Shown here piece after piece: positions 1-19,225 of a DNA stretch of 64,000 nucleotides (its first letter is position 1; each line of letters opens with the position of its first letter). Source of the DNA: Candidatus Manganitrophus noduliformans (GTDB lineage: Bacteria > Nitrospirota > Nitrospiria > SBBL01 > Manganitrophaceae); NCBI RefSeq assembly GCF_012184425.1, contig NZ_VTOW01000001.1, positions 806,001-870,000 on the forward strand, in the 5' to 3' direction. The position numbers and the translations under genes are program-made. Under the pieces are notes generated by a model that saw only the letters and a program-made list of their open reading frames with translations, had not been told where the DNA came from and made no database searches.

Positions 1-63
1 GTTGTGACGGCCATGGGCTACAAATACGCAAAGCAGGTCACGATGATAACGAAGGAACGATGA
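1..63 (+). CDS. 3' end of a phage gene (partial)
   Basis: Frame 1 is open from the window edge and ends at TGA 61-63, giving the last 20 residues of a protein. Its stop overlaps the ATG of the next gene in an ATGA, the same tight coupling seen through the rest of this phage block, so it is probably the upstream structural gene of the operon. Too little is visible to assign a function. Confidence 0.5.
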   Translation, partial: VVTAMGYKYAKQVTMITKER

Positions 64-1586
64 AGAGAATCGCCGTCAAAAGGGTCGATACAGGCATTGT
101 CTCGAACAGTTCGGCGAGCAAGGTGGTCTGGTCGCGCGGGCGGAATGTGCGTTTCCGGCCTGGAAGCGTTTACAAAACACCTGGAAAAACCCTCCTTACG
201 ACCGTTCCTGCGGCCTTGTCGATCCGGGCGATGAAAACCTTCAAGGGCCATGACGGCGTGGTCAGAACGGTTGTAGCATGCGACAACAAGATATTTTCTT
301 ACACAGGCGGGTTCACAGAGCATGTAGAGATCACGCCGACGCCGGCGCCGACCGGAACGTCCTACGTGTGGCATTTCGAATTGATCGGGGGGATGTTGAT
401 CGTCTCGAACGGGTTTTCTCGCTGGAAGTGGCCGAATTATGCGGCGCCGTTGCAGGCTATGACCGGCGCGCCTGAGAAATTCGGAATGATGACCGTTTCG
501 AACAACCGGTTGATCGTCGGAAATATCACCGATGGGGGGAACGCTTATCCGGCTCGGGTGAAGTGGTCTCAGATCGGAAAGCCGGAAATCTTCACGATCG
601 ACAAAACCGGGAAGGGAGGCCGTCATGACCTGCTCGATCCCAACGGGAAGTCGGACGCGATCGAGATCCCGAAGGCGGCGACCCATCGCGGAAAGCGGAC
701 CATCATTTACACCGAGAGAAACATTTGGGCGCTGGATCCGGTTGAGTTCCCCCTGGACTACCGGCCTGAAATCATTGTTCCCGGCCTGGGGCTGCTGGCG
801 CCGAAAGCGCTCGTATCCTGGAAGGGGATCGATTACATCATGGGCCCGGACGATTTTTACATGATGGGATCGGGTGCGCCGGTTCCGTTCGGCTTCGATA
901 TTCGGCCGCTTTGCTTTAACAACTTGAACAAAGAAGTTGGTGTGATCAATACGGCGTTCGGGTTCGTGCTTCCTGAAACCCAGGAGATCGGCTTTGCCGT
1001 GCCGTCGAAGAATGCCACTGAGCCGGATACGATTTATCTCTACCACCTCGAATTGAAAAAATGGACACCGTTGAGCTGCAACTTTCTCTGCGTGAATGAC
1101 TCCCGGCAAGATCCGAATTACGGTGGCGCGTTCGGCGGCGGCGGATTTGGAGAGGGGGCGTTTGGTGGGGCCAATGACGTCAATCTTCTTCCCTACACCG
1201 TGGTCGGGAATATCCACGGCCAGATCCTCAAATTCGATGAGGGTTTCAACGACAACGGGGAGCCGATTACCGGCTATATCGAGTCGGGCGACATGGAAGG
1301 GGATTCCGCGTTTGTCTCAAAGGTCACTCATTCCGTAGCCGTTTATTTGAAAGAGCAAAGCGGAACGACTGAGCCGTTGATGATTCAGATCGGGGTAAGG
1401 GATTCGCTTTCGAAGCCTCTGAAATGGTCGATTCCGAAACCGTTTGCGGCCGGCATCGATGAACAGGCGGATATCACCGCGCGCGGAAAGTGGATGCGGA
1501 TTCGGTTTTACAGTGATCAAATGGATAGTCCATGGGAGCTTGAAGGGTACGAGCTTTTATATTCAAATGAGGAGGAGATCCGATGA
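60..1586 (+). CDS. Phage connector/tail structural protein, propeller-like
   Basis: A 508-residue protein. The N-terminus (VDTGIVSNSSASKVVWSRGRNVRF.., about residues 9-45) has the 'NVRF-PGS..KTPGK' character of podovirus head-completion or tail-nozzle proteins such as P22 gp10-like stabilisation proteins. Repeating beta-rich blades with aromatic/Gly turns follow, and a Gly-rich stretch (GGAFGGGGFGEGAFGG) lies near residues 355-372. There is no signal peptide. It starts at the ATG that overlaps the previous stop and overlaps the next ATG in ATGA. Position just before a fibre and virion proteins supports a structural role. The family assignment rests on general resemblance, not on a diagnostic motif. 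A T7 gp12-like nozzle is the main alternative. Confidence 0.5.
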   Translation: MKRIAVKRVDTGIVSNSSASKVVWSRGRNVRFRPGSVYKTPGKTLLTTVPAALSIRAMKTFKGHDGVVRTVVACDNKIFSYTGGFTEHVEITPTPAPTGTSYVWHFELIGGMLIVSNGFSRWKWPNYAAPLQAMTGAPEKFGMMTVSNNRLIVGNITDGGNAYPARVKWSQIGKPEIFTIDKTGKGGRHDLLDPNGKSDAIEIPKAATHRGKRTIIYTERNIWALDPVEFPLDYRPEIIVPGLGLLAPKALVSWKGIDYIMGPDDFYMMGSGAPVPFGFDIRPLCFNNLNKEVGVINTAFGFVLPETQEIGFAVPSKNATEPDTIYLYHLELKKWTPLSCNFLCVNDSRQDPNYGGAFGGGGFGEGAFGGANDVNLLPYTVVGNIHGQILKFDEGFNDNGEPITGYIESGDMEGDSAFVSKVTHSVAVYLKEQSGTTEPLMIQIGVRDSLSKPLKWSIPKPFAAGIDEQADITARGKWMRIRFYSDQMDSPWELEGYELLYSNEEEIR

Positions 1587-3028: not shown

Positions 3029-3514
3029 ATGGAAAACCAGGTCGGTATGATCAGAATGGCGGAAGTTGTTCCGCCTGAATCTCCCCAGCTTCACATCGAG
3101 CTCGCGGTGACGTTCCCGAAGGATAAATTCGATGCGATTTGGAGTGAGATCAAGCCATTTGTCGAAGAGCTGGCGGCGGCGTCCGCCGGCGAGTACGACG
3201 CCTATTCCGTCGCTCATGCGCTTCTTTTCGGCACTGCCCACCTCTACGTTGGCCGGTTGACGAATCCCGCGCGGACCTTCGTCGGTTATCTGCTGATCCG
3301 GTATGAACCGCAATCTTGTCACATCTGGCAGGCGTACATCGCTCCCGAGTTTAGGAAGACGAACGTTTTCCAGATGGGGGCCGATTACATCGAGCGAGAG
3401 TTTAAAAAGATGGGCGCCAAGCAGATTACCTTTTCCGCCACGCGGGAGTGGGGCGAAGTCATCGAGAAAATGGGCTTCACCCGCACCTACACGATTTGGA
3501 GGAAGTCGCTTTAA
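3029..3514 (+). CDS. GNAT-fold acetyltransferase-like protein
   Basis: A 161-residue protein with the layout of a GNAT enzyme: a central beta strand 'TFVGYLLIRYEPQSCHIWQAYIAPEFRK' (about residues 88-115) matching strands 4 and 5 and the start of the acetyl-CoA loop, then a helix and the C-terminal 'AKQITFSATREWGEVIEKMGFTRTYTIWRK' typical of GNAT strands 6 and 7. The usual Q/RxxGxG/A pyrophosphate loop is replaced by RKTNVFQMGAD, so activity is uncertain. GNAT-like proteins are common in podovirus structural clusters, sometimes as putative internal virion proteins. It follows a terminator, and its TAA overlaps the next ATG (TAATG). Substrate unknown. Confidence 0.6.
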   Translation: MENQVGMIRMAEVVPPESPQLHIELAVTFPKDKFDAIWSEIKPFVEELAAASAGEYDAYSVAHALLFGTAHLYVGRLTNPARTFVGYLLIRYEPQSCHIWQAYIAPEFRKTNVFQMGADYIEREFKKMGAKQITFSATREWGEVIEKMGFTRTYTIWRKSL

Positions 3515-4449
3515 TGGGATCTTCCGGGTCCGGATCTTCACAGCAGGTGACGAATCTATTTGTTGGGTTTGAGCCGGAGGTTTCAGAATACCTCAAGGCC
3601 ATGCGCGATTTGGTCAATTATTCGACAACGACGACAAAGCCGCAGTTTCGCCCTCCCCTGTTTACCATCCCGGCACAGACCTACGCGCTTCAAGACGCGA
3701 ACGAGCTGGAAGGCATCTCCCGGCTGGCAACACGATCCAGAGATGGAAGCCCGATCATCTCTGCCGGCGAAACCGTGCTTCGAAACACATTCGACGGTCT
3801 GAACCTTACCAATAATCCGAAGCTGGATGCGCTTTGGACGCGGCGAAAAGAAGAAGTGATTCAGGAGTGGGAGGAAGAGATCCTTCCCAGGATTCATTCG
3901 ATTGCCAATCTCAACGGCGGGTTCGGTTCTTCCGGTCATCATGTGATGCAGGCGAAAGAAGCCGAGAAGGTCATGAAGCGGCTGGTTCAAATCGCCTACG
4001 AGATTTACGGTCAGAATTATTTCGCGGAGCGGGCGATTCAGCAGGCGGCGCTCGGGCTCGGAATCGAGTACGGCACCCAGGATATTAAAGACGCGGAGAT
4101 GCTTCGTCAGGTGGGACTCTACAAGCGGGAGTATTCCCAGGGAGCGAGGGAGGACGCCTACAAGCGATCGATGGCCGAAATTGACATGGAGATCACCCGG
4201 CTGGAAGTGCTGGGTAACGCTATTCGGACCGTGATGGGGTCATACGTCACCCGGACGGAGCAACTTTTCTATCCGAGTAAGTTTGGGGAGATTGCCGGAA
4301 TCGCTCTGGCCGGAATGAGCTTGGCTGGATCGATCTACGGAAACGGCGGGTTCGGAAGTCCTTCGACGGGTCAAGCCGGAAGCCCGTCAAGTGGGCCGAC
4401 GCCCTCTTATTCTCCCGGGTCGGCCGTTCCAAGCTACCAGGTGGGGTAA
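3514..4449 (+). CDS. Phage virion protein, paralogue A (putative internal/ejection protein)
   Basis: A 311-residue protein. I chose ATG 3514 over upstream alternatives because it overlaps the previous stop (TAATG) and has GGAGG at a good distance. The sequence is mostly helical, with a Gly/Ala-rich hydrophobic segment near residues 255-275 (IAGIALAGMSLAGSIYG) and a Ser/Pro/Gly-rich tail. It is clearly related to the next gene: 'EGISRLATRSRDGS' matches 'EGIAKLNTRGRNGN', and 'QVGLYKREYSQGAREDAY' matches 'RAGIYQREYEQTKLDDAY'. Paired helical proteins with glycine-rich membrane segments next to tail genes fit podovirus ejection proteins. This is an inference from position and composition, and I know of no named family. 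Confidence 0.55.
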   Translation: MGSSGSGSSQQVTNLFVGFEPEVSEYLKAMRDLVNYSTTTTKPQFRPPLFTIPAQTYALQDANELEGISRLATRSRDGSPIISAGETVLRNTFDGLNLTNNPKLDALWTRRKEEVIQEWEEEILPRIHSIANLNGGFGSSGHHVMQAKEAEKVMKRLVQIAYEIYGQNYFAERAIQQAALGLGIEYGTQDIKDAEMLRQVGLYKREYSQGAREDAYKRSMAEIDMEITRLEVLGNAIRTVMGSYVTRTEQLFYPSKFGEIAGIALAGMSLAGSIYGNGGFGSPSTGQAGSPSSGPTPSYSPGSAVPSYQVG

Positions 4450-4452
4450 ATC

Positions 4453-5358
4453 ATGGGTGGATCAAAGGGACAAAGCACGGTCACTGTCGAGAAATGGCCT
4501 GCATTTCTTGAAGATACGGCAAACCCTTATTCCGTTCCCGGAATTTTGAATTTATACCTCGATGCTTCAAGAGAGGTCAGCGATTACTATGAGAGCGTTT
4601 TTCTTGGCGGTGTTTCTGTCTTTACGAACTTCGCCAAGATCATCGTCGCTCAAGCGGTTGAAGAGGCCGAAGGGATTGCAAAGCTAAACACCCGCGGAAG
4701 AAACGGAAATACCACGGTCACAAAGGCAAAGGCGCTCGTCACCGATGTGATCGGTGGGGATTACCTGGATGGATCCAGATCCGAGTTTCAGGAAGTCCTT
4801 ACCGATATCAATCAGAAGTCGGACGATGCCTTTGAAGACGATATTCGCTCGAAAGTGGGAGGCTCCCTTTATTTGATGGGAGATCCGGCGCCGGACAACC
4901 TGGCGGAAGAATTAACCTCCGGAACTTCTCAGAAATATCGGGACCGGCTGGTCGACCGCGCCTATGCCGACAATTATGGGGTTGAACGAAGGCATCAGCA
5001 TGACACGCTTTATCCTGGAAAGGATTACGCGATTCAAGACGTTTACGATGCGGAAGCCGTTCGCCGGGCCGGAATCTATCAGCGTGAATACGAGCAAACA
5101 AAGCTCGATGATGCTTACCGGGCGCAAATGGAGTACACCGCGAACAGAATCCGGGCTGAGGAGGTTTTTGGGAACGCGCTTCGTTCGATGGTGGGGGCGC
5201 AGCAGGCACATACCACACCATATTACAAGCCGAATCCGGCGGGGTCGATCCTCGGTGGTGCGTTGGTGGGGGCACAGGCCGGGTCTGTGCTGGGTCCGTG
5301 GGGAGCGGCCGGCGGTGCCGTGATCGGTGGAATCTTGGGATATGCGGGATCACAATAG
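4453..5358 (+). CDS. Phage virion protein, paralogue B with C-terminal glycine-zipper segment
   Basis: A 301-residue protein, a diverged tandem duplicate of the preceding gene. The two share the 'EGI..L.TR.R.G' block and the '(V/A)GIYxREYxQ..xDAY..xM...xxRxE.xxGNA.R' block at about residues 195-245. The C-terminus ends in a glycine zipper (GGALVGAQAGSVLGPWGAAGG.., about residues 263-298), a pattern seen in membrane-inserting or pore-forming segments. It begins 3 bases after the previous stop and is followed 8 bases later by the next gene. A role in DNA delivery through the envelope is inferred, not shown. Confidence 0.55.
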   Translation: MGGSKGQSTVTVEKWPAFLEDTANPYSVPGILNLYLDASREVSDYYESVFLGGVSVFTNFAKIIVAQAVEEAEGIAKLNTRGRNGNTTVTKAKALVTDVIGGDYLDGSRSEFQEVLTDINQKSDDAFEDDIRSKVGGSLYLMGDPAPDNLAEELTSGTSQKYRDRLVDRAYADNYGVERRHQHDTLYPGKDYAIQDVYDAEAVRRAGIYQREYEQTKLDDAYRAQMEYTANRIRAEEVFGNALRSMVGAQQAHTTPYYKPNPAGSILGGALVGAQAGSVLGPWGAAGGAVIGGILGYAGSQ

Positions 5359-5366
5359 GAGACGGC

Positions 5367-6797
5367 ATGGCACACGATGATATCCGGAAAGGGAACGGCT
5401 TGAGGATCAATTTCGGGGATCGTGTTTTATTCGAAGATCCTCCGTCAAAGCCGAATATAGCAGAGAGTATCTATCGGGACGAAGGAAGCCGCATCGAACC
5501 CGGCAATCCGAATCGAAGTGCCGTCACCCCTGTTTCGAATGCGATTACTGGACCGATTTACGGTCCGAAGAACATCGCCGAGGAGCGGGTTTCCCCGCGT
5601 CCCGGAATGACCTCGCCGCCACTTCCCGAGTGGCCAAATACCGCGGCGTCTGCCGTGTCTCCCCCCACATGGGAGCGCCGCGGTATTCCTACCATCCCTG
5701 CCGTTGATTCGGATGTGTCGACGCCTGATGTGGTCGCTTCTCCCGGACAGCCGCAAGGGCTCAAGACGCCTGAAGGAATGGGCCCCCCTGCGCCGGAAAG
5801 CGCAACCGCCAAATGGTTTAAGAACATGACGCCGGATCAGCGGACGGCGCTTCAACGGTCTCTTCTGGCGACCGGGCTTTCTTTGATGGCGTCTCAGCGA
5901 CCCTCCCGGTATCCGGTTTCGACTGTCTCTCAGGTCGGAGAGGCGGGGCTGACGGGGCTTGCCGTTTACGATCGAACCATGGCGCAAGCTGGCGAAGCAG
6001 CGGATCGCCGGACGCAACTTGGATTGCGGGAGCGTCAGGTCGCTACAGAAGAAGCGCGGCTTCGCCTGGCGGTTGATGAGGCGATGAGGAAGGCCGAATT
6101 CGAAAGCCCTGGAACGCCTGGGACGGTCGGATACTCGGAGCGGCCGACGTCGCTTCAACTCAATACCGGAGGGGTTCAGGAGCGGCCGGTAGCGACCCGC
6201 GGCGAGGGGGCTGGACCTCGAGCGCTTGGGTTGAATCTCGGAGCGCCGGAGGCGTCTTCCGGGGCGACCCGGCCGGAGAGAGGGTTGGTGGTCACCCCGG
6301 GAAAAGAGCCCGGTCAGGGGTATCGTGCGCGGGAGGCCGATATCCGGTATCGAAACGCGGTGACCGACAAGCTGCTTTCCGAAACAGGCGGAGAGATCTT
6401 CAAGTTGACACTGGAAGAGAAGCGCCTTGGGATCGAGAAGGCGAAAGCAGAGATCGGTAAGCTTCGCGCGGAAGCGGCCAAAATGCCGAAGTCTCAACGC
6501 GATTACCTCGAAGAGAAGGCGCAAGACGGATTTACGAAAGCCTATCTTGCGTACAAAAAGGAACATCCTGAGGACGAGGACGGCGCGATCGCGGCCGGAT
6601 TCAGCGTTTACAACTCCCTCTTTCGCATGGGGATGGGTGATCAGTTCATTCCGGGGGAGGAAACTGGATTCTGGCCCTTTAAAGGCCGGGAGCCTGGTCA
6701 GTGGGTATCTCCCCCGGCCGGCGCGAAGGATACCGGCCGCACCTCTGGCGGAAAGAAGGTTTATCAACTTCCTGACGGAAACTACTGGGTGCCCTGA
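5367..6797 (+). CDS. Phage protein of unknown function, Pro-rich N-half and coiled-coil C-half
   Basis: A 476-residue protein. ATG 5367 is preferred to the upstream in-frame start because it sits just after the previous stop with GGAGACGG in front. Residues 1-140 are Pro/Ser/Gly-rich and probably disordered. A short helical segment near 150-185 ([27 protein letters not shown]) is the likeliest folded or membrane-active part. Residues 345-410 are Lys/Glu-rich coiled coil ([27 protein letters not shown]). The C-terminus ends in a short '[15 protein letters not shown]' unit. The stop overlaps the ATG of the giant gene (TGATG), suggesting translational coupling. It may be a virion linker or internal protein. 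Confidence 0.5.
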
Positions 6798-9700
6798 TGC
6801 CGATCATCCCCAAGGATCAAATCCAATTTGACGAAACGGATGCCTCAGCGTCGCCTCCTGGCGGCCAAATCTACAAGCCTGACCAAATCCGTTTCGATGA
6901 TGAACCGGCCCAGGGAAAGGGGCTTTCCGTCGCCGGAGCGGGGCGTCCCGGCATCGGCCTGAAACCGGCCCACGAAACGCTTCCAGGGGCCGACGCAGAG
7001 ACAATGCGGGATCAGCCAGCGACTTGGGGCGAGACGTTAAAAGCGATTCCGGAATTGACCTACCAGGCTGGAAAAGAGGCGGTTGGCGGGATTGCCCAAA
7101 TGGTCGGCGAGGGCCGATCGACTCCCGATCCAATGGGCGGGATTGTGCTAAAGATCGCCGAGGAGTTAATGCCGGGCCTTAAAACCCCTCCCCCTCCTCG
7201 GGATGAAGCGATTTCCCAGTTCGGCGAGCGCCTGGGTGCGGAAGCAAGGGCGCGATCGGAAGAAATCACGCCGAAGAATCAGACCTTCTGGCAGAAAGCA
7301 ACCACACAGGCCGGTATTTCGCTTGGGAGCATGATTCCTGGGACTATCGCGTCGATCATTGCCGGAAACCCTGCGCCATTGGTGGGCTCCTTCGCTGCAC
7401 AAGAGGCAGGGCAGAGTTACAGTGAGGCACGGTCCAAGGGACTCCCGGAGGGTCAAGCGGCTCTGTACGCTCAATTAAATGGTGTGATCGAAGCGGGGAC
7501 CGAGTATCTTCCGGCGAAAGTGCTTTTTAAATCAGGTACAGGCCCTTTTAAAAGATTGCTGAATCTCTACGCCGCGGAACTCCCCGGTGAGAACATCGCC
7601 ACCTTAAGTCAATCCCTCAATGCCTACGTCAACGGATTGGATCCGAATCTAACCGGCGGGGAATTGATCGAGCGGATGAAGCTGACAACCGGGTCGACAA
7701 TGATTTCCGCCGGTGTTCAAGGTGGGATCTCCACGGTTGGAAATCGGATGGCTGGACGAAGGGGCCTTCCGGTTGAGGCACCCAAAGCGACCCCTCCCCC
7801 AACCGGAAAACCGCCCGCGTCTCCGACCGAACCTCCAACCTTCACCCCGACGCACATCCTTCCGGACGGCACGGTGACCCAAAAGGTTGAAGAGGGGGTG
7901 GTGGTCGACCGCCAAGGAAACCTTTATTCCGAAGAGGACGCCACCCCGACGCCGGGACAACGAAGACCGCCGGATACCAGCTTCCGCGCGCGCGACCTGT
8001 CAGAAATACCAGGTGAGACGCCGATCGGAAGGGGTTTGCCGGTTGAACCGGTTGCAGCTGCAAGCCCGGTTGAAGCGCCGACAGACGTCGACCTTCTGGT
8101 GCCGACCGATCAGCCGATACCGCCTCCTGGGCGGGGCCTTTCCCTGGAGACGCCTGAGGCGCTGGCTCCCAGGGTCGAAGCCGATTTGACGACCGGGCAG
8201 GTGATCGAGCAGCCCGAAGCCGTCCGACCGACACCGGTTGAGACGCCGCAGGTTGTTCCGGACGCTCCGACCGGTCCTATCTCCCCTGAAATCGAGCGCC
8301 CCAGGCCACAGCAAACCATTCCCTCGATTCGTCAGGAGGTCGAAGTTCTTGATGAGGAAGCGGAGGACATTCCCCAGCCGAAGGAGATGGACGAAAAGAG
8401 CCCGCTCGGATTGAAGGGGACCGACAAGAATACCTCGCTCGCCGCCTTTGTTCGTGCTGCAGGTGGCATCAACGAAACGCAGATGGCGGGGGATGTGCGT
8501 CAACGCTTCTCGATCCGGGAAGGATTCAACCTGGTCAACCGAAAAACAGGCCTTCCCCTCGATCGGCTTCGGCAAATGGCGGCGCAACATGGGTTCGTTC
8601 CGGAAGACTCCACCCCGGCCGACTTTCTTGAAGCGCTTCGTCGGGACGCCGACTCCCTTAAAGCGCTGGGGAAGGGATCCGTTTTCTCACGCTACTACTC
8701 GCCGGACCTTCCTGGGTTTGACTCGCCGGAAGCCAAGGCGTTCGAGCGCCGGACCGATATCAAGAAAAGAAAGATTGTCAATCGAATGACGCCGGAGGAG
8801 ATGAGAAAGGAACTCCTGACGAGCGCGAAGACTGGAATTCCGAATGATCGTGCCTACGAAGAGGCGATCGACAATACGACCGACAAGGGCCGTCCACATC
8901 GCCGCGACGTTCAGGCTATGATCGACATGGACGGGCTGAAATGGGTCAACGATAATTTGGGCCATGAAGCCGGAGACGCTTTTCTTCGCGCGATCGGCGA
9001 TGCGATTAAAGAATCTGAAATCGAGGGATACCATTTAAGCGGGGATGAGTTTGCCGCGCAATTCGATCGGGAAGTGGACGCTTATGCGAAGATGGAAATA
9101 TTGCGCGACGTTCTCAGAAATGGTATTGTAACCGTTGAGTATGCTGACGGGTCTTCTCGTCAGTTTAAAGGATTGGAGTTTTCCTATGGCGTCGGATCGG
9201 AAAGAACCGCAGCAGACACCGCCCTCTACTCCGACAAAGCAAGGCGAAGGGAATCCGGGGAGCGGGCAAAAACGTCCACCGAACCGCCTCCTTCCCTGGT
9301 TGAAATCACTCCCCCCGAATCCGGTGCGGATAACCGTGGAACTCCTGGGCCGCAAGACCGTGGTGGATCTGAAACCGAAACCGAAGACTTCCGATTAACT
9401 TCTCCCGAAGCACCCCCCGAAGAGCAACCTAAAGCGCCTACCGCCCAGCAGGGTGAAATGTTTCCTGGATCTGAGACGATGCAGACGGGCACCCGTCCGA
9501 TCATCGCCGAAGAAACCGGGGAATTTTTCAAACCGCTTGAGCCGGAAATTGAACAGCCTTCCCTCCTCGATCAAAAACTCGAAGAAGCACGCGAACAGGT
9601 TGACACCTCCCCCTCCGAAGCCCAAATTGAAGCCGGAAACTACCAAAAGGGACACCTCCGAATCAATGGTCTTGATATCTCAATAGAAAACCCGAAGGGT

Positions 9701-12700
9701 TCCACGCGGAACGTCGGCGGGAAATCCTTCAAGATGAACTTCGACTATGGGTATATCAAGGGAACGACCGGCGCCGACAAAGAGCATATCGACGTTTACC
9801 TCGGGCCCAACCTGGAATCGGAAAAGATCTTTGTCGTCAACCAGGTCGATCCCGATAAGAACAAATTTGATGAGCAAAAGGTCATGCTCGGATTCTCTTC
9901 CCCGGAAGAGGCCAAAACCGCCTACCTGAAACAGTACGACAATCCTGCCTTTTTCGGGTCAATGGTCGAAGTGAGTATGGAGGATTTCAAGGCGCGGATA
10001 AATGGCGGGGGGAAATTGATTGAACCGGCGGAGGTAATCAAGCTTCGAAAGCGGCTTTACGATGAGGGGGAGAAAAAGAAGCAGACGGGAAACCGGGAGC
10101 GGTTGAAAAACCTTCTCTCAGGCCGCGGTGGAATGATTGAAACCGATGCGGAGAGAAAAGCGCGGGAAGAAAAAAGCGCTTCCATTCAACAAGCGGAAGA
10201 GAGTAAGATAATTGCGTCGCCACAGGAGACAGCCGATGAGCCTGGATCAGTTCGGCCAACAAGCCAAAGCCCACTGGAAGGAACACCTTCCGAAGAAGTA
10301 TCGTCAACTCTCAGCAGCGGGGACGCTGGAGAAGGAACTTCTCGAAGCCCAAGAGAAGACGCACGACGAGATCAACCGTCTGATGACACAGGGGTTGACG
10401 TTCGACGAGGCCTGGGAGCTGACGAGGGAGAAATATCTTCTCCTTCCACCGGAGAAGGGGTAGCCCGAAACCAATCCCACCAAGGGAAGCCCGCCGGGTA
10501 CGACTACATTATCCGTCCGGAGATCGACAACCTCGAAGAGGGCGGGCCCAAAGGTAAGTTCAAGCGAAACCTCGACGCGCTCAAACTCCTTAAAAACATC
10601 GAAGCGGAAGGACGTCTTGCCACCCCGGAAGAACAGGCCGTTCTTGTCAAATATGTCGGTTGGGGCGGGATGCCGGCCGCCTTCAACGAATGGGGCGACT
10701 GGTCGGACGAGAACCGCCGTTTAAAAGAAGTCCTTACCGAGCAGGAATACGAGCAAGCGCGCGCAACCACACCGAACGCGCACTATACCTCTCCGGCAGT
10801 TATCGCGGGGATCTATAAGGCGCTGCAGCGTTTCGGATTCAATGGGGGGCGCGTCATTGAGCCGTCCATGGGGGTCGGTCACTTCTTCGGATTGATGCCG
10901 CAAGAGATGGCGGCGCGATCGACCCGGACCGGCGTTGAAATCGACTCTCTCACTGGCCGGATTGCTCGCCAACTCTACCAGACCGCCGACATTCGCATTC
11001 AGGGTTTTGAAGACACGAAGCTTCCGAACAACTTTTTCGATGTCGCCGTGGGTAATGTTCCTTTCGGCGATTTTAAAGTAAACGACCTTCCTTATAACAA
11101 ACATAATCTCTTCATCCACGATTACTTTTTCGTGAAGTCACTCGACAAGGTTCGTCCGGGTGGTGTGCTCGCCTTTATCACCTCCTCCGGCAGCATGAAC
11201 AGCGGCCGATCTGAGAAGATGCGCCGGTTGATGGCTGAACAAACAGAATTCATCGGCGCGATTCGTCTCCCCTCCTCGGCGTTCAAAAAGATCGCCAACA
11301 CCGAAGTCACAACCGATGTGATCTTTCTTCGAAAGCTTCTTCCTGGGGAGAAGCCGACCGGACCCGCCTGGATTGAATCGAAGGACAGCGATTTCAAGGG
11401 AGAGGGCGGGGTACCTCTTAGAAACAACGAATACTTCATCGCTCATCCCGAGATGATGCTGGGGAAGGTGACTGACGACAAATTACATCCGGGCCGGATG
11501 GGGTTGGCGCCGGACGGCCGCGATTTAACGCAGGCCATTGAGGAGGCGGTTTCCCGTCTTCCTGAGAACGTTTTTAGGGATGCTCCAAAGAAGACCGTTC
11601 AGGAAATTCTCGAAAGGCTTCCGGCTCCGGAGGATGTCAAACCCGGCGCGTTTACCCTCCAGGACGGAAAACTTTACATGGAGAAGGGCGGGCAGCTCGT
11701 CGCCCCCATGACGGCGACCGATCGGCCGATTGAGGGGGTGGCCGCCGAACGCGTTAAAGGGATGATCGCAATTCGGGATGCGGTTCGTGAAGTGATCCGC
11801 ACTCAGATGATGGAGTCTTCCGAAGAAAATATTCTTCGCACACGGAAGCAGTTAAATCAAACCTACGATCGATTCGTTAAAAAATACGGCTATATCAATT
11901 CACAGCCGAATAACGTGGTTTTCCGAAACGATCCGGATTACTACACCCTGGCCGCGCTCGAGAAGTGGGACAAAGAAGCGAAGACCGCGACCAAGGCGGA
12001 CATATTCAGCAAGCGGACCATCGAAAGAAACCTCCGTGCCAGCCGGGTCGATACCTCAAAAGAGGCGATGCTCGCTTCTTTAAACGAGATGGGCCGGCTT
12101 GATTTTGACCGAATGCGGGAGTTGACCGGAAAGAGCGACGCCGATCTTCAATCCGAGTTAAAGGGATTGATCTTTCTCAATCCGGAAGGAAGTTGGGAGT
12201 CCGCCGACGAGTACCTTTCCGGCAATGTGCGGGAGAAACTTAAGGCCGCGGAGGGGGCTGCTGCTGCAGATCCACGGTTTAAAGAAAATGTCGAAGCTCT
12301 CAAAGCGGTTCAGCCGGAAGAATTGACCGCCGGAAAGATCGATCTTCGCCTCGGTGCTTCCTGGGTGCCGCCGTCTGATGTGCGCGATTTTATAAAACAC
12401 CTTCTTGGGATCGATACCAGGGTCGGCTATTCGGCGGGGATGGCAACGTGGTCGGCTAATTTTGTCCGCGGAAATCTTGACTCAACCGCCAACCAAACCC
12501 AATACGGTACCTCTCGCTATTCCGGACTTTCTCTGATTCAGGATACGCTCAATCTGAAAACCGCGCGAGTCTATGACACCTTCCGGGAACCGGGTGGCGG
12601 GGAGAGATCCGTCCTTAACGAAAAAGAAACCCTAGCCGCACAGGAAAAACAGGAAGCGATCAAGCAAGCGTTTAAGAAGTGGGCGTTTGAGGATCAGGAA

Positions 12701-15700
12701 CGGGCCGAACGGCTGGTGAAGATTTACAACGAGCGGTTTAATTCCATTCGGACTCGGCAGTATGACGGCAGCCATTTAACCCTTCCTGGCGCTTCTCCTA
12801 TTATCCAGCTTCGCCCCCATCAGAAAGACGGAATCTGGAGAATCGTTCAATCCGGAAATACCCTCCTGGCGCACGTTGTTGGCGCTGGAAAGACCTTCAC
12901 GATGATCGGTGGGGCGATGGAGCTGCGCCGGCTGGGGATCGTTAAAAAGCCGGTTTTTGTCGTTCCGAACCATCTTGTCGGTGAGTGGGGAAATCAATTC
13001 CTTCGTCTCTATCCCGCCGCCAACATTTTGGTTACGACCAAAGCCGACTTCGAGAAGAAGAACCGTCAACGGCTGATGGGGAAGATCGCAACCGGTGATT
13101 GGGACGGGGTGATCGTCGCCCATAGCGCCTTTACGAAGCTTCCCGTCAGCGATGAAACAGTAATCGAATTCCTCGAACGGGAATTGACTGTATTGAGAGA
13201 TTTCCTCGAAGAGGCAAAGCGAGAAGCCGGTAAGAGCGGAAACCAGATCGTCAAGGAGTTGGAGAAAGCGAAAAAGCGTCTTGAGGCAAAAATAGATGCG
13301 CGCCATGACGCCATTAAAGCACGGGCCGATCGCGGGGTGAGTTTCGAAGAAACCGGGATCGACATGTTGTTGGTCGACGAAGCCGACCTTTTTAAAAATC
13401 TTTTCTTTCCCACCAAAATGACGCGCGTGGCCGGACTCGCTCGATCGGAGAGTGAACGCGCCTTTGATATGTATATTAAGACGCAGCTGATCAATAAACT
13501 CACAAACGGCCGCGGGATCGTCTTCGCCACCGGAACACCGGTCAGTAACACCATGGCTGAGGTGTTCACAATGCAACGGTATCTGCAGCCTCAAACCCTG
13601 GAAGGGCAGGGGCTCTCTCATTTCGATGCCTGGGCGTCTCAATTCGGCGATACGGTCACCGCTTTGGAGCAATCCCCAACTGGCGCCACTTTCCGCATGA
13701 ATACCCGGTTTGCCAAGTTTACCAACGTGCCCGAGCTCATGTCGATGTTCATGCAGACGATGGACCTGAAAAACCGGGAGATGCTGAACCTTCCGACCCC
13801 CAAGATCAAGGGTGGGAAACCGGAGATGGTCATCGCCAAGGCGACGAACGAATTGAGGCGGTTTGTCGAAATTCTGGAAAAACGTGGACAGGCGATCAAG
13901 GAAAGGAAGGTTAAGCCGGAAGAAGACAACATGCTCAAGATTACGGGTGACGGCAGGAAGGCCTCGCTCGATATTCGCCTGGTTCAGCCGATGGCGCCGG
14001 AAGCAAAATCCGGAAAGGTCAACCTTGCAATTCGAAACGTGGTCGATATTTGGGAAAAGACGGCCAACGTGAGGGGAGCGCAATTGGTCTTCCTGGATCT
14101 CTCCACCCCGAAAGGTCAAAAGGAGGCTGGCGATAAAGAAGCGCCGAAACCTCCCGCGTCGGAAGGGGTTGAAGAGGCTCCACTGAAAGACGAAGGAGAG
14201 GCGGATCGGGCGGTAGAAACCGCTGAGGAAGCGTCGCTTCGCGGATCGGTCTACAACGATATAAAGCGAAAACTGATTCTGCAGGGAATCCCGGAGAATG
14301 AAATCGCCTTCATCCACGATGCCGATACAGACGCAAAGAAAGAGCAACTCTTCAAGAATGTGAATTCCGGCAAGGTCCGGATTCTGATGGGATCAACCGA
14401 GAAGATGGGGGCCGGCACCAACGTTCAGGAGCGTCTTGTCGCTCTTCATCACCTGGATGCGCCGTGGCGACCGCGCGACCTTGAACAGAGAGAAGGCCGG
14501 ATCATCCGGCAGGGGAATAAACTCTACGAGGCCGACCCCGAGAATTTTCAGATTCAAATCTTCCGCTATGCGACCGAAGCGCCTTCTTTCGACCTGTATA
14601 TGTGGCAGCAACTTGAATCGAAAGCGAAGATGATCGCTCAGGTCATGAGTGGCCGCACCGACATTCGGGAAATCGAAGACATCGGGGATCAGTCGATTCG
14701 GTCGATCGAGGAGATGAAAGCGGCGACCTCCGGAAATCCCCTTCTTAAAGAAAAGGTGGAAGCCGATTTTGAAATCCGAAAACTCTCTCTGCTGAAATCC
14801 CAGCACGATGACGCGCAATTCCGGCTGCGCCGCCGGCTTTCTGAAATGGGAAGCGATATCCCCAGGGATAAGCGGAACCTTGAATTGCTCAAAGCGGATA
14901 TCGCCCATCGGGACAAAAACAAATCCGAAAAGTTCAAGATGGAGGTCGGCGGGAAGGTTTATACCGAACGAAAGGATGCCGGCGAGCAAATCGTCCGGAT
15001 CGGCGCCGGGTTGCAGGCCGATAAGAAGTATGATCAGTGGCAACCGATCGGACGGTACAACGGGTTTAATCTAGAGGTTGGGGCCTATGCTCTTGATATT
15101 TCCATCCGGATGAGCCGGCCGGGCGGGATGTATCATTATGCCAACGTAACGGATACCTTTCAGGGGACCATTGCCAGCATTGACGCCACTCTCCGCGGAA
15201 TGGAAGCAGCCCAGGAAAAGATCGAGCGCAGGATTGATAAAAACGAAAAAGACGTCGAGGAAGTTAAGAAAGAAATCGGAAAGCCCTTCGAGCAAGAGGA
15301 TCGGCTTAACAATCTGGTTGCGCGATCGGCCGAAATCGAAAAGATTTTAAAAACTCCCGTTCCGGAAGCACCGAAGACCGATGAACCGCAAGCGCCGGCC
15401 GAAGAGGGGGAGGCAGAGTTTTCGGTTGCCCGCGGCGCTTTTCGCCTGACAAACGATCAATACCGGAAGATCGTCGCCGACCTTCAACGGATCATCGCTC
15501 CCGGAAGCCGGGTCGTTCTGAAAGGTCAAATCACGGCCAATGCCGAAGGAAACGAGAAAGCCCTTGCCTCCTGGGGGATGGGTGATACTACCGGCGATAT
15601 CAGGCTGGCCGGCCTTCACCGGACCGTCCGGTTGGACAATGGTCAACTGGCCTCCCTGATTCAACTCTCCCTGCGCGACATGAACGAGGGTACCCCCTAT

Positions 15701-18619
15701 CATGAAGCGTGGCACTCCGTCGAAAACCTTCTTCTCTCCGACAAAGAGATTGAGACCCTGCGCGCTGCCTTCCCCGAAAAAGATTGGGTAGCGTCGACCG
15801 AGCGCACCGCGGACGCCTTCGCCGATTGGGTGGCGAAGAAGAAGATCGAAGCCCCGGGCCGGGTGCGGCTGCTCTTCCTGAAAATCCGGACCTTCTTCGA
15901 GAAGCTGAGAAACGCGCTCCGCGGCCGTGGGTTTAATTCTGTCGAAGTCCTCTTTGAAAAAGCCTTCGCTGGGGAGCTGCGGGATCGAACGACACGCGGC
16001 CAAGTTGGGGGAGAGAGTTTCTCTGTCAAAAAGTACAAAACCCCCGAAGAGGCGAAACAGGCGACCCTCGAAGCGCGGAAGGAGAAAGAGGAAAAGCGCA
16101 ACCTCAAAATCAAGCTGCGCGCCGCGGAGAAAGCATCGAAAGAAGGCTTCCGCGCGGGTGTCTCGGAGGAGCGCGCCAAAGCCAATGCCAAAATCGCCGA
16201 GATGAAGCGGGACCGGACGGCCATTGTCAATCGCCTGAAAAACACCTTCGCTGAAAAGTTGGAGGAAATCGGCCGGGTCCAGGAGTTGAAAGACCTGAAA
16301 GCCGACATTCTTACCCGAAACGTCGAATCGATCAAGCAGGAAATCGCCGACTACGCCAAGAAGCACCTTCCGATGGAAGCCCGCGGGGCGATGCTCTCGA
16401 ACGTGGCGAAGGCGAAAACTCACGCCGACCTGGTTCGCGCGTTCGCTCGGATCGATAAAATCGCCGAACAGGTGGAGAGAAAGGGGCTCATTGCCGAATT
16501 CAAAGACGTTCTGCAGCGAATCTCGGAGAGCAACACGATCGCCGTTCCCTACCGGAATCGAATCCGGGATCTTCTCTCGAGCCTCGAATTTTCAGAGGGC
16601 CGATACCGGCGCGCGAAAGCGCTGATGATCGACGGCGAAATGGATCCGGCCACCGAAGCGATGATGGAAGCGATGTCCGTTCTTGCGCGCCGGCCGCTCT
16701 CCGATTTATCGAATGATGAAATCCGGGCGATGCTGGAAGAAATCGTTCTGCTGGAAGAGCTGGGCCGGCAGGCCGAAATTACCAGAAAAGAGCTTTGGGA
16801 AGCCCGTAAAGAGGCGATTAAGGAAGCGGTGGTTTCCGGGACGGTCCCGATCGAGAAGCCCGAAGGAAAAGCCCTTGCCGCCGCCCAGCACATCGATTTG
16901 GCTGTCACTCCGATGGATGCCCTCATTGACCGGTTGGACGGGGGAAAGGGGTCGTATGACGGCGCCAACATGACCTATTTCAAAAAGCCGATCGATTCCG
17001 CCTGGGGGAAATTCCTCGATGCGATCGACCCGATCAAAAAACAGGCCTGGGAGAAAGCGGGAAAGCTGCAGCTGACGAACGAGGATTTCGAGCGGATCGG
17101 GATCTACGCCGCGGATCAACAGGAAGGGGGCCGGGAGAAGCTTTTAAACAACGGGTTAACCGAAGAGGAGATCGACGCGATTCAGCTCCGTCCTTCCGAA
17201 ATGGAATTCTACCAGTGGATGAGGAAGAAGCTCGATCTGCTGTGGCCGCGGATCGCAAAGATCATGGCCGACGTTTACGGAAAACCCTTTGGGAAGGTGA
17301 AGAACTATTTCAGCTTCATGACCGATTGGGAAAAGCTGACCGAGATGGAGGTGGTTTCCCGGTTGATCGAAGCGCCGGAGTATGCCCCTCGGACGAAACA
17401 CCCTGAAATGAGCTTTACAAAATCCAGGATCGGAGCCGGAAAGCAGAGGATCAAATTAAACGCCATGGAGATCTTCCTCCGCCATACCGAGAACGCCGAA
17501 TACCTTCTCAATATGGGACCGACCGTGAAAATGCTCTACGAGGTCGCCAACTCCAAGGAGTACGGAGCGGCCGCCGGCGATCGGGGGCAATCGCTGATGG
17601 TTCAGTGGTTGGATCTGATTGCGCGGAAGGGAGGCATTCAGGGGGACCGGCAGATTGCCATTCTCGACATTCTTCGTCGCAACGTGGGGGTGGCGACCAT
17701 GTCGTTTAAGGTCTCCTCGGCGCTGGTGCAGCCCTCCTCGATCGTCACCGGGGCGTCGATGATCGGCCGCTACGCCTTCACCGGCAGTATGGACGTGGCG
17801 ACGTCGAAGCGGTGGCGTGAATTTCTCACAAAGAATTTCCCGGAGATTAGAGACAGAGAAGCCGACGATCCGGCCTTTATGGAGCTGTCCGACCGGAAAT
17901 GGTTGGCCCGGATGACGAAGATCGGACTCGGACCCCTCAAAAAGCTGGACCTGTACGCCGCCTCTGCGATCACCGCCGGCGCCTACCGGAAATACCTCAA
18001 TGAGCACGGACAAACCCTGGATTTCGAGAAGCCGAACAAGGACGCCATTGCCTATGCCGAATTGATGCTGCGGCGCACCCAGGCCTCGATGTTCTTCAAG
18101 GATACCCCTCTGGCGATCTCCCGCGGCGCGCTGACGGGAAACCGATCACTCGATAAAGTGCTCTTCCAGTTTCAAAACTTCGCGCTGAATAACTGGAGCC
18201 TGATTCGCCATGATCTTTGGCGCGCCGGCATCCGGGAGCGTAATCCCGCCAAAGCGGTCCGAATCTTCACCTGGTTGACCCTGGCGACCCTCGCCGAGGT
18301 CGGACTTCGGGATCTGGCCGGGTTCCTGACGGGAATGGATGATGATGATCCAGTCGAAAAAGAAATGGTCCAAGAAGCATTGAACAAGGTTCCCTTCCTC
18401 TCTCATTTGGTTTCAGCGATCGTGTATCAGGATGTGCCGATCCCGGTTGTTTCTACGTTGATGCGAATCCCGAAAGGGATTGGAAGAATGTTGTTCGGCA
18501 AAGAGCCGGAGACGAAGGCGCGCGGCCTCGTCACGGCGGTAGAAGGAGCGGGGCGGGTGGCCGGGATTCCTGGGGCTGCTCAGGTGGGGCAAACAGCAAG
18601 GGAAGCGCTGTCGGATTAA
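6797..18619 (+). CDS. Giant 3,940-residue phage polyvalent protein (SGDEF, InPase-like, N6-adenine methylase, SF2 helicase, zincin)
   Basis: A single uninterrupted frame. Domains in order: two short 'DQIxFD' repeats (residues 8-34); Gly/Ala-rich hydrophobic helices about 165-215; a diguanylate-cyclase-like domain about 660-805 with [11 protein letters not shown] (D710, D712), GHEAGD and SGDEF at 748-752 but no RxxD inhibitory site; a phage inorganic-pyrophosphatase-like domain about 949-1070 ([13 protein letters not shown]); an adenine methylase about 1235-1500 with EPSMGVGHF near 1353 and GNVPFG at 1419-1424 in place of NPPY; a DarB-like SF2 helicase with GAGKT 2029-2033, DEAD 2194-2197 and QREGRIIRQ 2564-2572; a zincin with HEAWH 2969-2973; long Lys/Glu-rich helices about 3040-3150; C-terminal polyvalent-associated helical domains about 3520-3940. 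Such multi-domain proteins, known from phages and conjugative elements, are thought to be packaged and injected to counter host defence. Position beside virion genes fits that. Which domains are active is not known. Confidence 0.85.
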
Positions 18620-18634: not shown

Positions 18635-18856
18635 ATGGAGGTGTCGCTCAACATTGGAACGATTTTAAGTGGTGTGCTTGTCGTCTTGTTGGCCTATGGA
18701 ATAAAGCTTCTTCTTGGCCTTGACAAGCAAATGTCACAGTTTGGACAGTGGACCGAATCTCACGATAAGCAAGACGATGAGCGCCACCTTGATTTGACGA
18801 AACGGATCGGCCGGATCGAGCAATCCAGAATGCAGGGCGGCGATGGGCTTCAATGA
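18635..18856 (+). CDS. Small single-span membrane protein, holin-like
   Basis: A 73-residue peptide with one strong membrane segment (residues 7-26, IGTILSGVLVVLLAYGIKLL) followed by a charged helix rich in His, Asp and Lys. This is the layout of small phage holins or spanin-like partners. It starts 15 bases after the giant gene with GGGGAGGGG upstream, and its TGA overlaps the next ATG. A lysis role is inferred. No endolysin is visible nearby, so it may instead be a virion membrane peptide. Confidence 0.5.
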   Translation: MEVSLNIGTILSGVLVVLLAYGIKLLLGLDKQMSQFGQWTESHDKQDDERHLDLTKRIGRIEQSRMQGGDGLQ

Positions 18857-19086
18857 TGATCGATGACAACGGCCGGCTGATAAAAAAACCGAAAGTTAAA
18901 ATCAAATGCCGCTGCTGTCAGTTCCACTTTTTTTCTTATCACACTATCCTCAATCAGATGTGTCGATCCTGCCTCAAGCATGGGGAATACTATAACCACC
19001 TGGAAGGGTGCCCCGTTGCGTTCGTGAGGAAAAAGCGGCTGAGGGAATGGTTAGAGAAGGAGAAGAGGAAAAGGAGGAGAGGTTAA
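18853..19086 (+). CDS. Small Cys-rich phage protein (probable zinc-binding)
   Basis: A 77-residue peptide. Paired cysteines 'KCRCCQFHFF' (about residues 18-22) and 'QMCRSCLKHGEYYNHLEGC' (about 36-53) could form one zinc site. The C-terminus is strongly basic (KKRLREWLEKEKRKRRRG). It is translationally coupled to the holin-like gene by an ATGA overlap and is the last phage-type gene before the tRNA-Lys. Nucleic-acid binding is plausible from the zinc-ribbon look and basic tail. Function unknown. Confidence 0.5.
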   Translation: MMIDDNGRLIKKPKVKIKCRCCQFHFFSYHTILNQMCRSCLKHGEYYNHLEGCPVAFVRKKRLREWLEKEKRKRRRG

Positions 19087-19149
19087 CCCTCTGCTTAACC
19101 CTCCCCCTTTTCCTCTTTGCGCTTTGCGGTGTAACTTATTGAAATTAAA

Positions 19150-19225
<76 letters not shown>

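Follow-up and report, generated by a model that had tools for sequence, protein, structure and literature searches.

The 64,000-nucleotide stretch of the Candidatus Manganitrophus noduliformans genome analysed here (contig NZ_VTOW01000001.1, G000:C1:806001-870000; hereafter the window) contains, at the end of a prophage, one gene for a giant protein of 3,940 residues, which is a DarB-like phage polyvalent protein and a further example of a kind of protein described in 2017. New beyond this known kind are the reading of the giant as an ejection protein with cargo, the phage lineage of its cyclase domain and a duplicated motif at its N-terminus. We propose that the giant is probably the largest of the internal (ejection) proteins of a temperate phage of the short-tailed type and that it carries defence-countering enzymes as built-in cargo.

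Frame, domain order and the methylase-helicase dyad

The gene runs as a single plus-strand frame from ATG to TAA (3,940 codons, Table 1) with zero internal stop codons; minus-strand open reading frames within it were not counted as genes. Several unrelated enzymatic domains lie on this one polypeptide, and the gene sits in the late virion-gene position of a prophage, the second mark by which polyvalent proteins are recognised (Iyer et al. 2017). A search with Pfam hidden Markov models (HMMs) placed the GGDEF, the inorganic pyrophosphatase-like domain (InPase) and parts of the helicase above the cut-offs and an Eco57I-type methylase slightly below (23.6 bits at residues 1405-1490, cut-off 25.3). 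The two helicase halves (residues 2003-2088 and 2500-2573) yielded Helicase_C at 26.1 and ResIII at 25.4 bits, both over cut-off. An earlier note on this DNA, made from the letters alone, had listed a cyclase-like, a pyrophosphatase-like, an adenine methylase, a superfamily 2 (SF2) helicase and a zincin domain in one frame. HMMs and motifs bear out all five, but the list overlooked two modules at the ends that match podophage giants. The catalytic motifs look intact at the level of sequence. The same note had called the protein very large; its size is ordinary, given that 48 of 144 complete homologous frames (the giant counted in), about a third, have at least 3,940 residues and the longest has 5,553, and exceptional size was rejected on this count. 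Exact peptide patterns run against viral and genome contigs found no close relatives of the giant.

The part of the protein that names it is the dyad of methylase and helicase. PHROG 10089 (DarB-like antirestriction) covers residues 1112-3209 entirely with 1928 bits, and the order LPD36, adenine methylase, SWI2/SNF2 helicase is that of DarB-like proteins; LPD36 is described, in the passage of Iyer et al. that treats it, by a GXGU motif preceding the methylase (PMC5512222). The motifs of methylase and helicase are kept in a comparison with 15 relatives. A broken methylase, with NVPF in place of NPPF, was considered and rejected, as NVPF occurs in P1 DarB and in gut phages as well. The comparison with P1 DarB that the earlier note had suggested showed the dyad to be shared, down to the same NVPF motif. 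By tblastn the dyad region found 123 phage records, the best at 37-45% identity, and it is 40-44% identical to the DarB-like giants of SopranoGao, Itty13, Pavtok and VvAW1. By analogy with DarB, we consider it likely that the dyad would shield phage DNA from restriction; protection of DNA in cis against type I restriction is known for P1 DarB only, according to the pertinent passage of Iyer et al. (2017, PMC5512222). About 3 kb past attL and outside the prophage (L004:1092-5470, G000:C1:753092-757470), frames were read from the sequence as HsdS and HsdR of a type I restriction system; a target of the type opposed by DarB may thus be present in the host. In the record of Pseudomonas phage Itty13 (L009, NC_070969 161-11419), three large hypothetical proteins are annotated on the other strand from an open DarB-like frame of 4,065 residues, probably a wrong-strand annotation.

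Ejection-type ends and presence in the virion

Both ends of the giant resemble a protein type from podophages. PHROG 9880, to which Bbp10 of Bordetella phage BPP-1 and giants of Vibrio podophages belong, matches the N-terminus weakly (0.0064) and the C-terminus at 7e-10. Residues 111-317 match gp18 of Vibrio phage 1.021 at 1e-17, and the C-terminus matches gp18 too, in colinear order. Pfam has no family at either end, and tblastn of the C-terminus against phages gave nothing at 1e-5, so that profile methods were required. In hhalign against an alignment of about 43 Bbp10-type proteins, the N-terminus reached 97.7% (E 2e-12) and residues 3246-3798 reached 96.9% (E 1.7e-10), while the dyad as a control gave 0.1% and shuffled C-termini 0.1-0.2%. 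The homology of both ends to the Bbp10 type is thus colinear, with clean negative controls. Hydrophobic stretches lie near residues 170-203 and 3817-3890, and the enzymes sit between them. Because both ends match a Bbp10-type giant, the enzymes look like cargo inside an ejection protein of the kind of T7 gp16 or the N4 virion RNA polymerase (vRNAP). Bbp10 is preceded, within the structural cassette of BPP-1, by an "internal virion protein" gene and by one for a transglycosylase, which is the position of the largest of three ejection proteins.

The setting of the gene points the same way. The prophage measures about 65.0 kb and is bounded by a 47-bp perfect repeat, the giant being the last of its large genes ahead of attR. 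The same strand carries, further upstream, the genes for terminase, portal, major head protein and structural proteins, and the ATG of the giant overlaps the stop codon of the preceding gene (TGATG), from which translation with the virion operon is expected. The placement among virion genes given in the earlier note therefore holds. As candidates for a small and a medium ejection protein, the two proteins encoded just before the giant (301 and 476 residues) fit in size and order, with homology weak or absent. The second has 476 residues from the ATG at 5367 and 499 from a GTG at 5298, and an HMM search of the protein encoded at 5367..6797 returned no match. The order of a head-closure or structural protein, an acetyltransferase, one or two virion proteins and the giant is common to JC1, SopranoGao and LASTA, and in VvAW1 a "DNA ejection" gene precedes the giant by two genes.

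Homologues have been found in virions. In Burkholderia phage JC1, gp69 (4,515 residues) was detected in CsCl-purified virions by mass spectrometry with 51 unique peptides, as the second-best scoring protein, and two further products of its operon, gp64 and gp68, were likewise present (PMC9144972). P1 DarB is a head protein with about 40 copies per virion (PMC9024508). Judged from these homologues and the gene order, the giant is very probably packaged. Packaging and injection, as the earlier note had proposed, are well supported by homology, namely by JC1 gp69, P1 DarB, the coupling to the virion operon and the ejection-like ends. That note had held that homologues expressed early and absent from virions would speak against it; the DarB-type homologues do not behave in this way, and the GGDEF domain on its own does so by half, through gp44 of phage YuA. 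If, instead, the lysogen made the giant for its own defence or for superinfection exclusion, as a resident factor and without injection, its gene at the edge of the prophage would make sense, and polyvalent proteins may act against rival elements, as a passage of Iyer et al. has it (PMC5512222). We regard this as very improbable, since translational coupling to the virion operon predicts late expression and the homologues are present in virions.

How the ejection protein proposed here would work can be outlined by analogy; the ejection of the giant, all of its enzymatic activities and all of their targets we infer. For T7 gp16, the proposed topology is a passage through the inner membrane via two hydrophobic regions, with a DNA-binding hub between them in the cytoplasm (PMC8954989), and the N4 vRNAP, of about 3,500 residues, is ejected with two smaller proteins (PMC12633501). 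It appears fairly likely that the giant would be ejected as a gp16-like protein with its enzymes on the cytoplasmic side. The giant would be loaded into the procapsid, possibly via the duplicated N-terminal motif, and at infection would leave together with the products of the two smaller genes that precede its own. The hydrophobic N- and C-terminal modules would hold it at the inner membrane in the way suggested for T7 gp16 (the host encodes LptD and hence possesses an outer membrane), and we infer from the same analogy that the enzyme-bearing middle would reach the cytoplasm while the DNA enters. The LPD36-methylase-SNF2 dyad would ride the entering DNA and, like P1 DarB, guard it against restriction of the type I-like kind, the GGDEF domain would make a short pulse of cyclic di-GMP (c-di-GMP), the InPase would remove pyrophosphate or split a defence or signal nucleotide, and the zincin would cut the polyprotein into separate units. 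If the enzymes are indeed cargo between ejection modules, this would give such giants a concrete route to the cytoplasm with a testable topology.

Residues 3-16 and 25-38 of the giant are near copies of each other, with DQI(Q/R)FD(E/D) within. Other giants carry a different motif of 7-15 residues, likewise twice, such as FDAAVAG in BPP-1; a duplicated N-terminal motif was seen in BPP-1 Bbp10 and in L065, L086, L090, L100, L215, L277, L319 and L323. After clustering, an N-terminal self-repeat (p <= 0.025) was present in 13 of 44 giants and, among 252 windows used as controls, in 12 (odds ratio 8.4, p 4e-6), and a second, independent set of GGDEF-bearing giants gave 15/40 against 11/160 (odds ratio 8.1, p 5e-6). 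Because each start codon was set at the first ATG and some dependence exists among the giants, these p-values are guides. The gene at 5367-6797 encodes DRVLFED at residue 18, resembling the motif of the giant, and such sharing between a giant and its upstream gene was not seen in 15 other phages. The first 30 residues of P1 DarB direct a reporter into the capsid and suffice for targeting (PMC9024508). On this precedent, our guess is that the duplicated motif may be a capsid-targeting signal, and as such it would be a candidate for directing foreign proteins into capsids.

The GGDEF, InPase and zincin domains

The GGDEF domain scores above its family cut-offs (residues 678-758: Pfam 39.9 bits against 23.8; TIGR00254 40.9 against 37.4) and keeps the catalytic and base-contact residues, that is, the equivalents of D327, K332, N335, D344, D370, E371, K442 and R446. 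It aligns at 98.6 bits with the viral domain L041 and at no more than 41 bits with any of the 47 other GGDEF domains of the host, and a recent capture from the host was rejected on this comparison. A search of IMG/VR with three phage-type GGDEF domains gave 75 loci. Residues were counted in 64 frames of at least 800 residues, the giant included, at positions outside the search patterns: the D327 equivalent is present in all 64, K442 in 60, R446 in 61 and the specificity residue D344 in 54. Among the 63 other frames, 14 have matches to the Bbp10-type chassis, some of them almost full-length, 13 an InPase and five a dyad; L278 alone has all three of GGDEF, InPase and dyad, arranged as in the giant, whose architecture is therefore not unique. 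By sequence, the GGDEF domain of the giant is a member of a phage lineage that recurs in these 63 large viral frames. In contrast to Iyer et al. (2017, PMC5512222), who in the relevant passage term GGDEF in polyvalent proteins "not very widespread", the phage GGDEF is a recurrent cargo in the larger IMG/VR collection. L295, L305 and L312 are Bbp10-type podophage giants of 2,065-2,271 residues with the phage GGDEF inside an otherwise complete chassis.

The residues retained suggest that the domain is quite likely an active cyclase. That it binds c-di-GMP without making it, or makes another nucleotide, would accord with SGDEF in place of GGDEF, with L for F in DxDxFK and with the replacement of the D344 equivalent in 10 of the 64 relatives. 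We consider this unlikely, as the eight equivalents from D327 to R446 are all kept in the giant and cyclases with a degenerate first glycine can be active: VCA0965 is active with AGDEF (PMC3974145), so a residue other than G at this position need not abolish activity. A change of host signalling, as the earlier note had it, is plausible because the catalytic residues are kept. A physiologically relevant c-di-GMP pulse at entry has somewhat less than an even chance. In phage YuA the GGDEF is a gene of its own (gp44), ahead of the terminase genes and next to an anti-restriction gene, which makes early expression another route for the same enzyme. More tentatively still, we hypothesize that many phages deliver a ready-made GGDEF cyclase of a dedicated lineage as cargo of an ejection protein, loaded into the capsid via the duplicated N-terminal motif, for a c-di-GMP pulse at entry. 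With a conserved phage GGDEF lineage at hand, injected second-messenger synthesis becomes a directly testable question.

The InPase belongs, by its score above cut-off and its acidic motif, to the polyvalent type (PF18823), and it resembles InPases found as fusions with phage portals (PDB 9b41). PF18823 occurs in only one other of 147 related genomes and in none of five genomes of the same genus, the pattern expected of a mobile element.

The zincin motif HEAWH occupies residues 2969-2973 (window 15701-15715), and many of its giant relatives have an HExxH that follows the helicase by 360-430 residues. In an alignment of 19 sequences, chosen for HExxH at the same spacing from the helicase, both HExxH and a downstream Glu are invariant, and in sequence terms this is the three-ligand zincin pattern. 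In the structure model, the HExxH and the third ligand, Glu, lie on predicted helices. The Pfam search gave the zincin region of the giant no hit of its own, and the MPTase-PolyVal profile matched two of the 19 alignment members (best E 0.0098). For its role, the sole direct precedent is the self-processing of P1 DdrB, and release of domains is favoured in the passage of Iyer et al. on such peptidases (2017, PMC5512222). We give even chances to the zincin processing the polyprotein itself. The earlier note had it degrade host proteins; zincins do serve as effectors in other conflict systems, and the same source lists this option, but self-processing is as likely or likelier on that precedent, and a zincin acting as an effector on host proteins after injection is rather unlikely. 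Because zincins of this kind can cut before, during or after delivery, the giant may be injected whole, as the earlier note suggested, or already cut.

Several points weigh against the giant as an ejection protein with enzymatic cargo. The phage is known here from its genes, and presence in the virion is taken over from homologues. Some homologues of the dyad lie in conjugative-type elements, so that the dyad alone is no proof of a virion role. The two upstream proteins show weak or absent homology to ejection proteins, and Bbp10 itself is a presumed ejection protein, which its record places in a "structural protein cassette". The model of the C-terminus is poor (pLDDT 50) and unusable for a fold search; that of the zincin region is weak (pLDDT about 55), and its fold search gave no significant match, with results dominated by coiled coils. 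Finally, the InPase reads DKEHID, with Glu at a position that is Asp in most of its family (DKDHID). A rival reading is that the giant, as a structural or internal protein, remains in the head and acts only there or on release, the enzymes other than the dyad being decayed passengers. Large internal proteins can be structural, and the modules do vary widely between relatives. Decay is unlikely, however, because homologues just 20-45% identical still agree in their catalytic residues in the GGDEF, the dyad and the zincin, and we judge this explanation quite improbable beside ejection with cargo.

Prophage neighbourhood and known relatives

Table 1. Features of the giant gene and its surroundings (window coordinates, except attL)
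Feature	Position	Strand	Basis or remark
Whole polyvalent protein gene	6797..18619	+	3,940 residues; ATG overlaps upstream stop (TGATG)
N-terminal motif copy 1, residues 3-16, candidate virion-targeting signal	6803..6844	+	
N-terminal motif copy 2, residues 25-38	6869..6910	+	
N-terminal ejection-type module, residues 111-317	7127..7747	+	blastp/HMM to Vibrio podophage gp18, BPP-1 Bbp10
GGDEF diguanylate cyclase domain, residues 656-835	8762..9301	+	motifs GHEAGD, SGDEF, DK, GER
Type I inorganic pyrophosphatase-like domain (InPase), residues 941-1068	9617..10000	+	Pfam PF18823 153 bits, cut-off 26.8
LPD36 GXGU motif (GWGG), residues 1288-1291	10658..10669	+	sequence against published motif
DNA adenine methylase domain, residues 1303-1514	10703..11338	+	motif IV NVPF at 1420-1423, as in P1 DarB
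SWI2/SNF2-like SF2 helicase domain, residues 2003-2573	12803..14515	+	Walker A, DEAD, TGT/SNT and QREGR motifs
Zincin metallopeptidase domain, about residues 2880-3030	15434..15886	+	HExxH and Glu conserved, identical spacing from helicase
C-terminal ejection-type module, residues 3246-3940	16532..18616	+	all-helical by prediction
Virion structural protein	60..1586	+	PHROG 3287, 5.8e-41
GNAT-like acetyltransferase	3029..3514	+	syntenic with acetyltransferase of JC1, SopranoGao, LASTA, Itty13
301-residue protein, C-terminal glycine zipper, candidate small ejection protein	4453..5358	+	weak PHROG 4287 "DNA ejection protein", E 4e-4
Candidate tunnel-type ejection protein, directly upstream of giant	5367..6797	+	position, overlap, synteny with JC1 gp68
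attR	19150..19196		47-bp perfect repeat within tRNA-Lys (3' half)
attL	G000:C1:760206		other copy of the 47-bp repeat; adjoins tyrosine integrase and CI-like repressor

Between the giant and attR (window 18635-19090) lie two short frames, one with a single hydrophobic N-terminal segment; JC1 and SopranoGao have a lysis gene downstream of their giants, but none could be recognised here. Two apparent orphan DNA methylases, one bearing an FCGAGG motif and the other DPPYG, lie in the early region of the prophage (L003:6176-7505), and near the left end of the prophage (L004:11722-12501) a pentapeptide-repeat-like protein with ADLRSANL repeats was seen.

The giant shares with P1 DarB the methylase-SNF2 dyad and the NVPF motif, and DarB, too, is a head protein believed to enter the cell. 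It differs in that DarB has 2,255 residues, is about 31% identical solely over the methylase, lacks both GGDEF and InPase, and belongs to a contractile-tailed phage. JC1 gp69 and the Bcep22-like giants have the same dyad (35% identical), the position at the end of the virion operon and an HExxH downstream, but gp69 is without a GGDEF or InPase match. A protein of an Acetonema longum prophage (WP_004096050.1; Iyer et al. 2017, PMC5512222) likewise unites GGDEF, SWI2/SNF2, adenine methylase and zincin; it has an ART domain, and the passage that describes it mentions neither an InPase nor Bbp10-type ends. With the same domain order, L278 (IMGVR_UViG_3300012964_000033) carries its GGDEF, InPase and dyad in a frame of at least 4,419 residues and has a duplicated N-terminal motif as well, whereas its C-terminus is incomplete and HExxH and a Bbp10-type N-terminus were not detected in it. 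The N4 vRNAP and T7 gp16, each the largest of three ejection proteins and each delivering an enzyme or a DNA-binding hub to the cytoplasm, are comparable by analogy only. BPP-1 Bbp10 and its Vibrio podophage homologues (PHROG 9880), of about 2,050 residues, share the N- and C-terminal modules in colinear order but have no dyad or InPase, and some relatives of this chassis (L295, L305, L312) carry a GGDEF domain. The giant thus joins two fields, that of polyvalent counter-defence proteins, known chiefly from domain surveys, and that of podophage ejection proteins, known chiefly from the structures of T7, P22 and N4.

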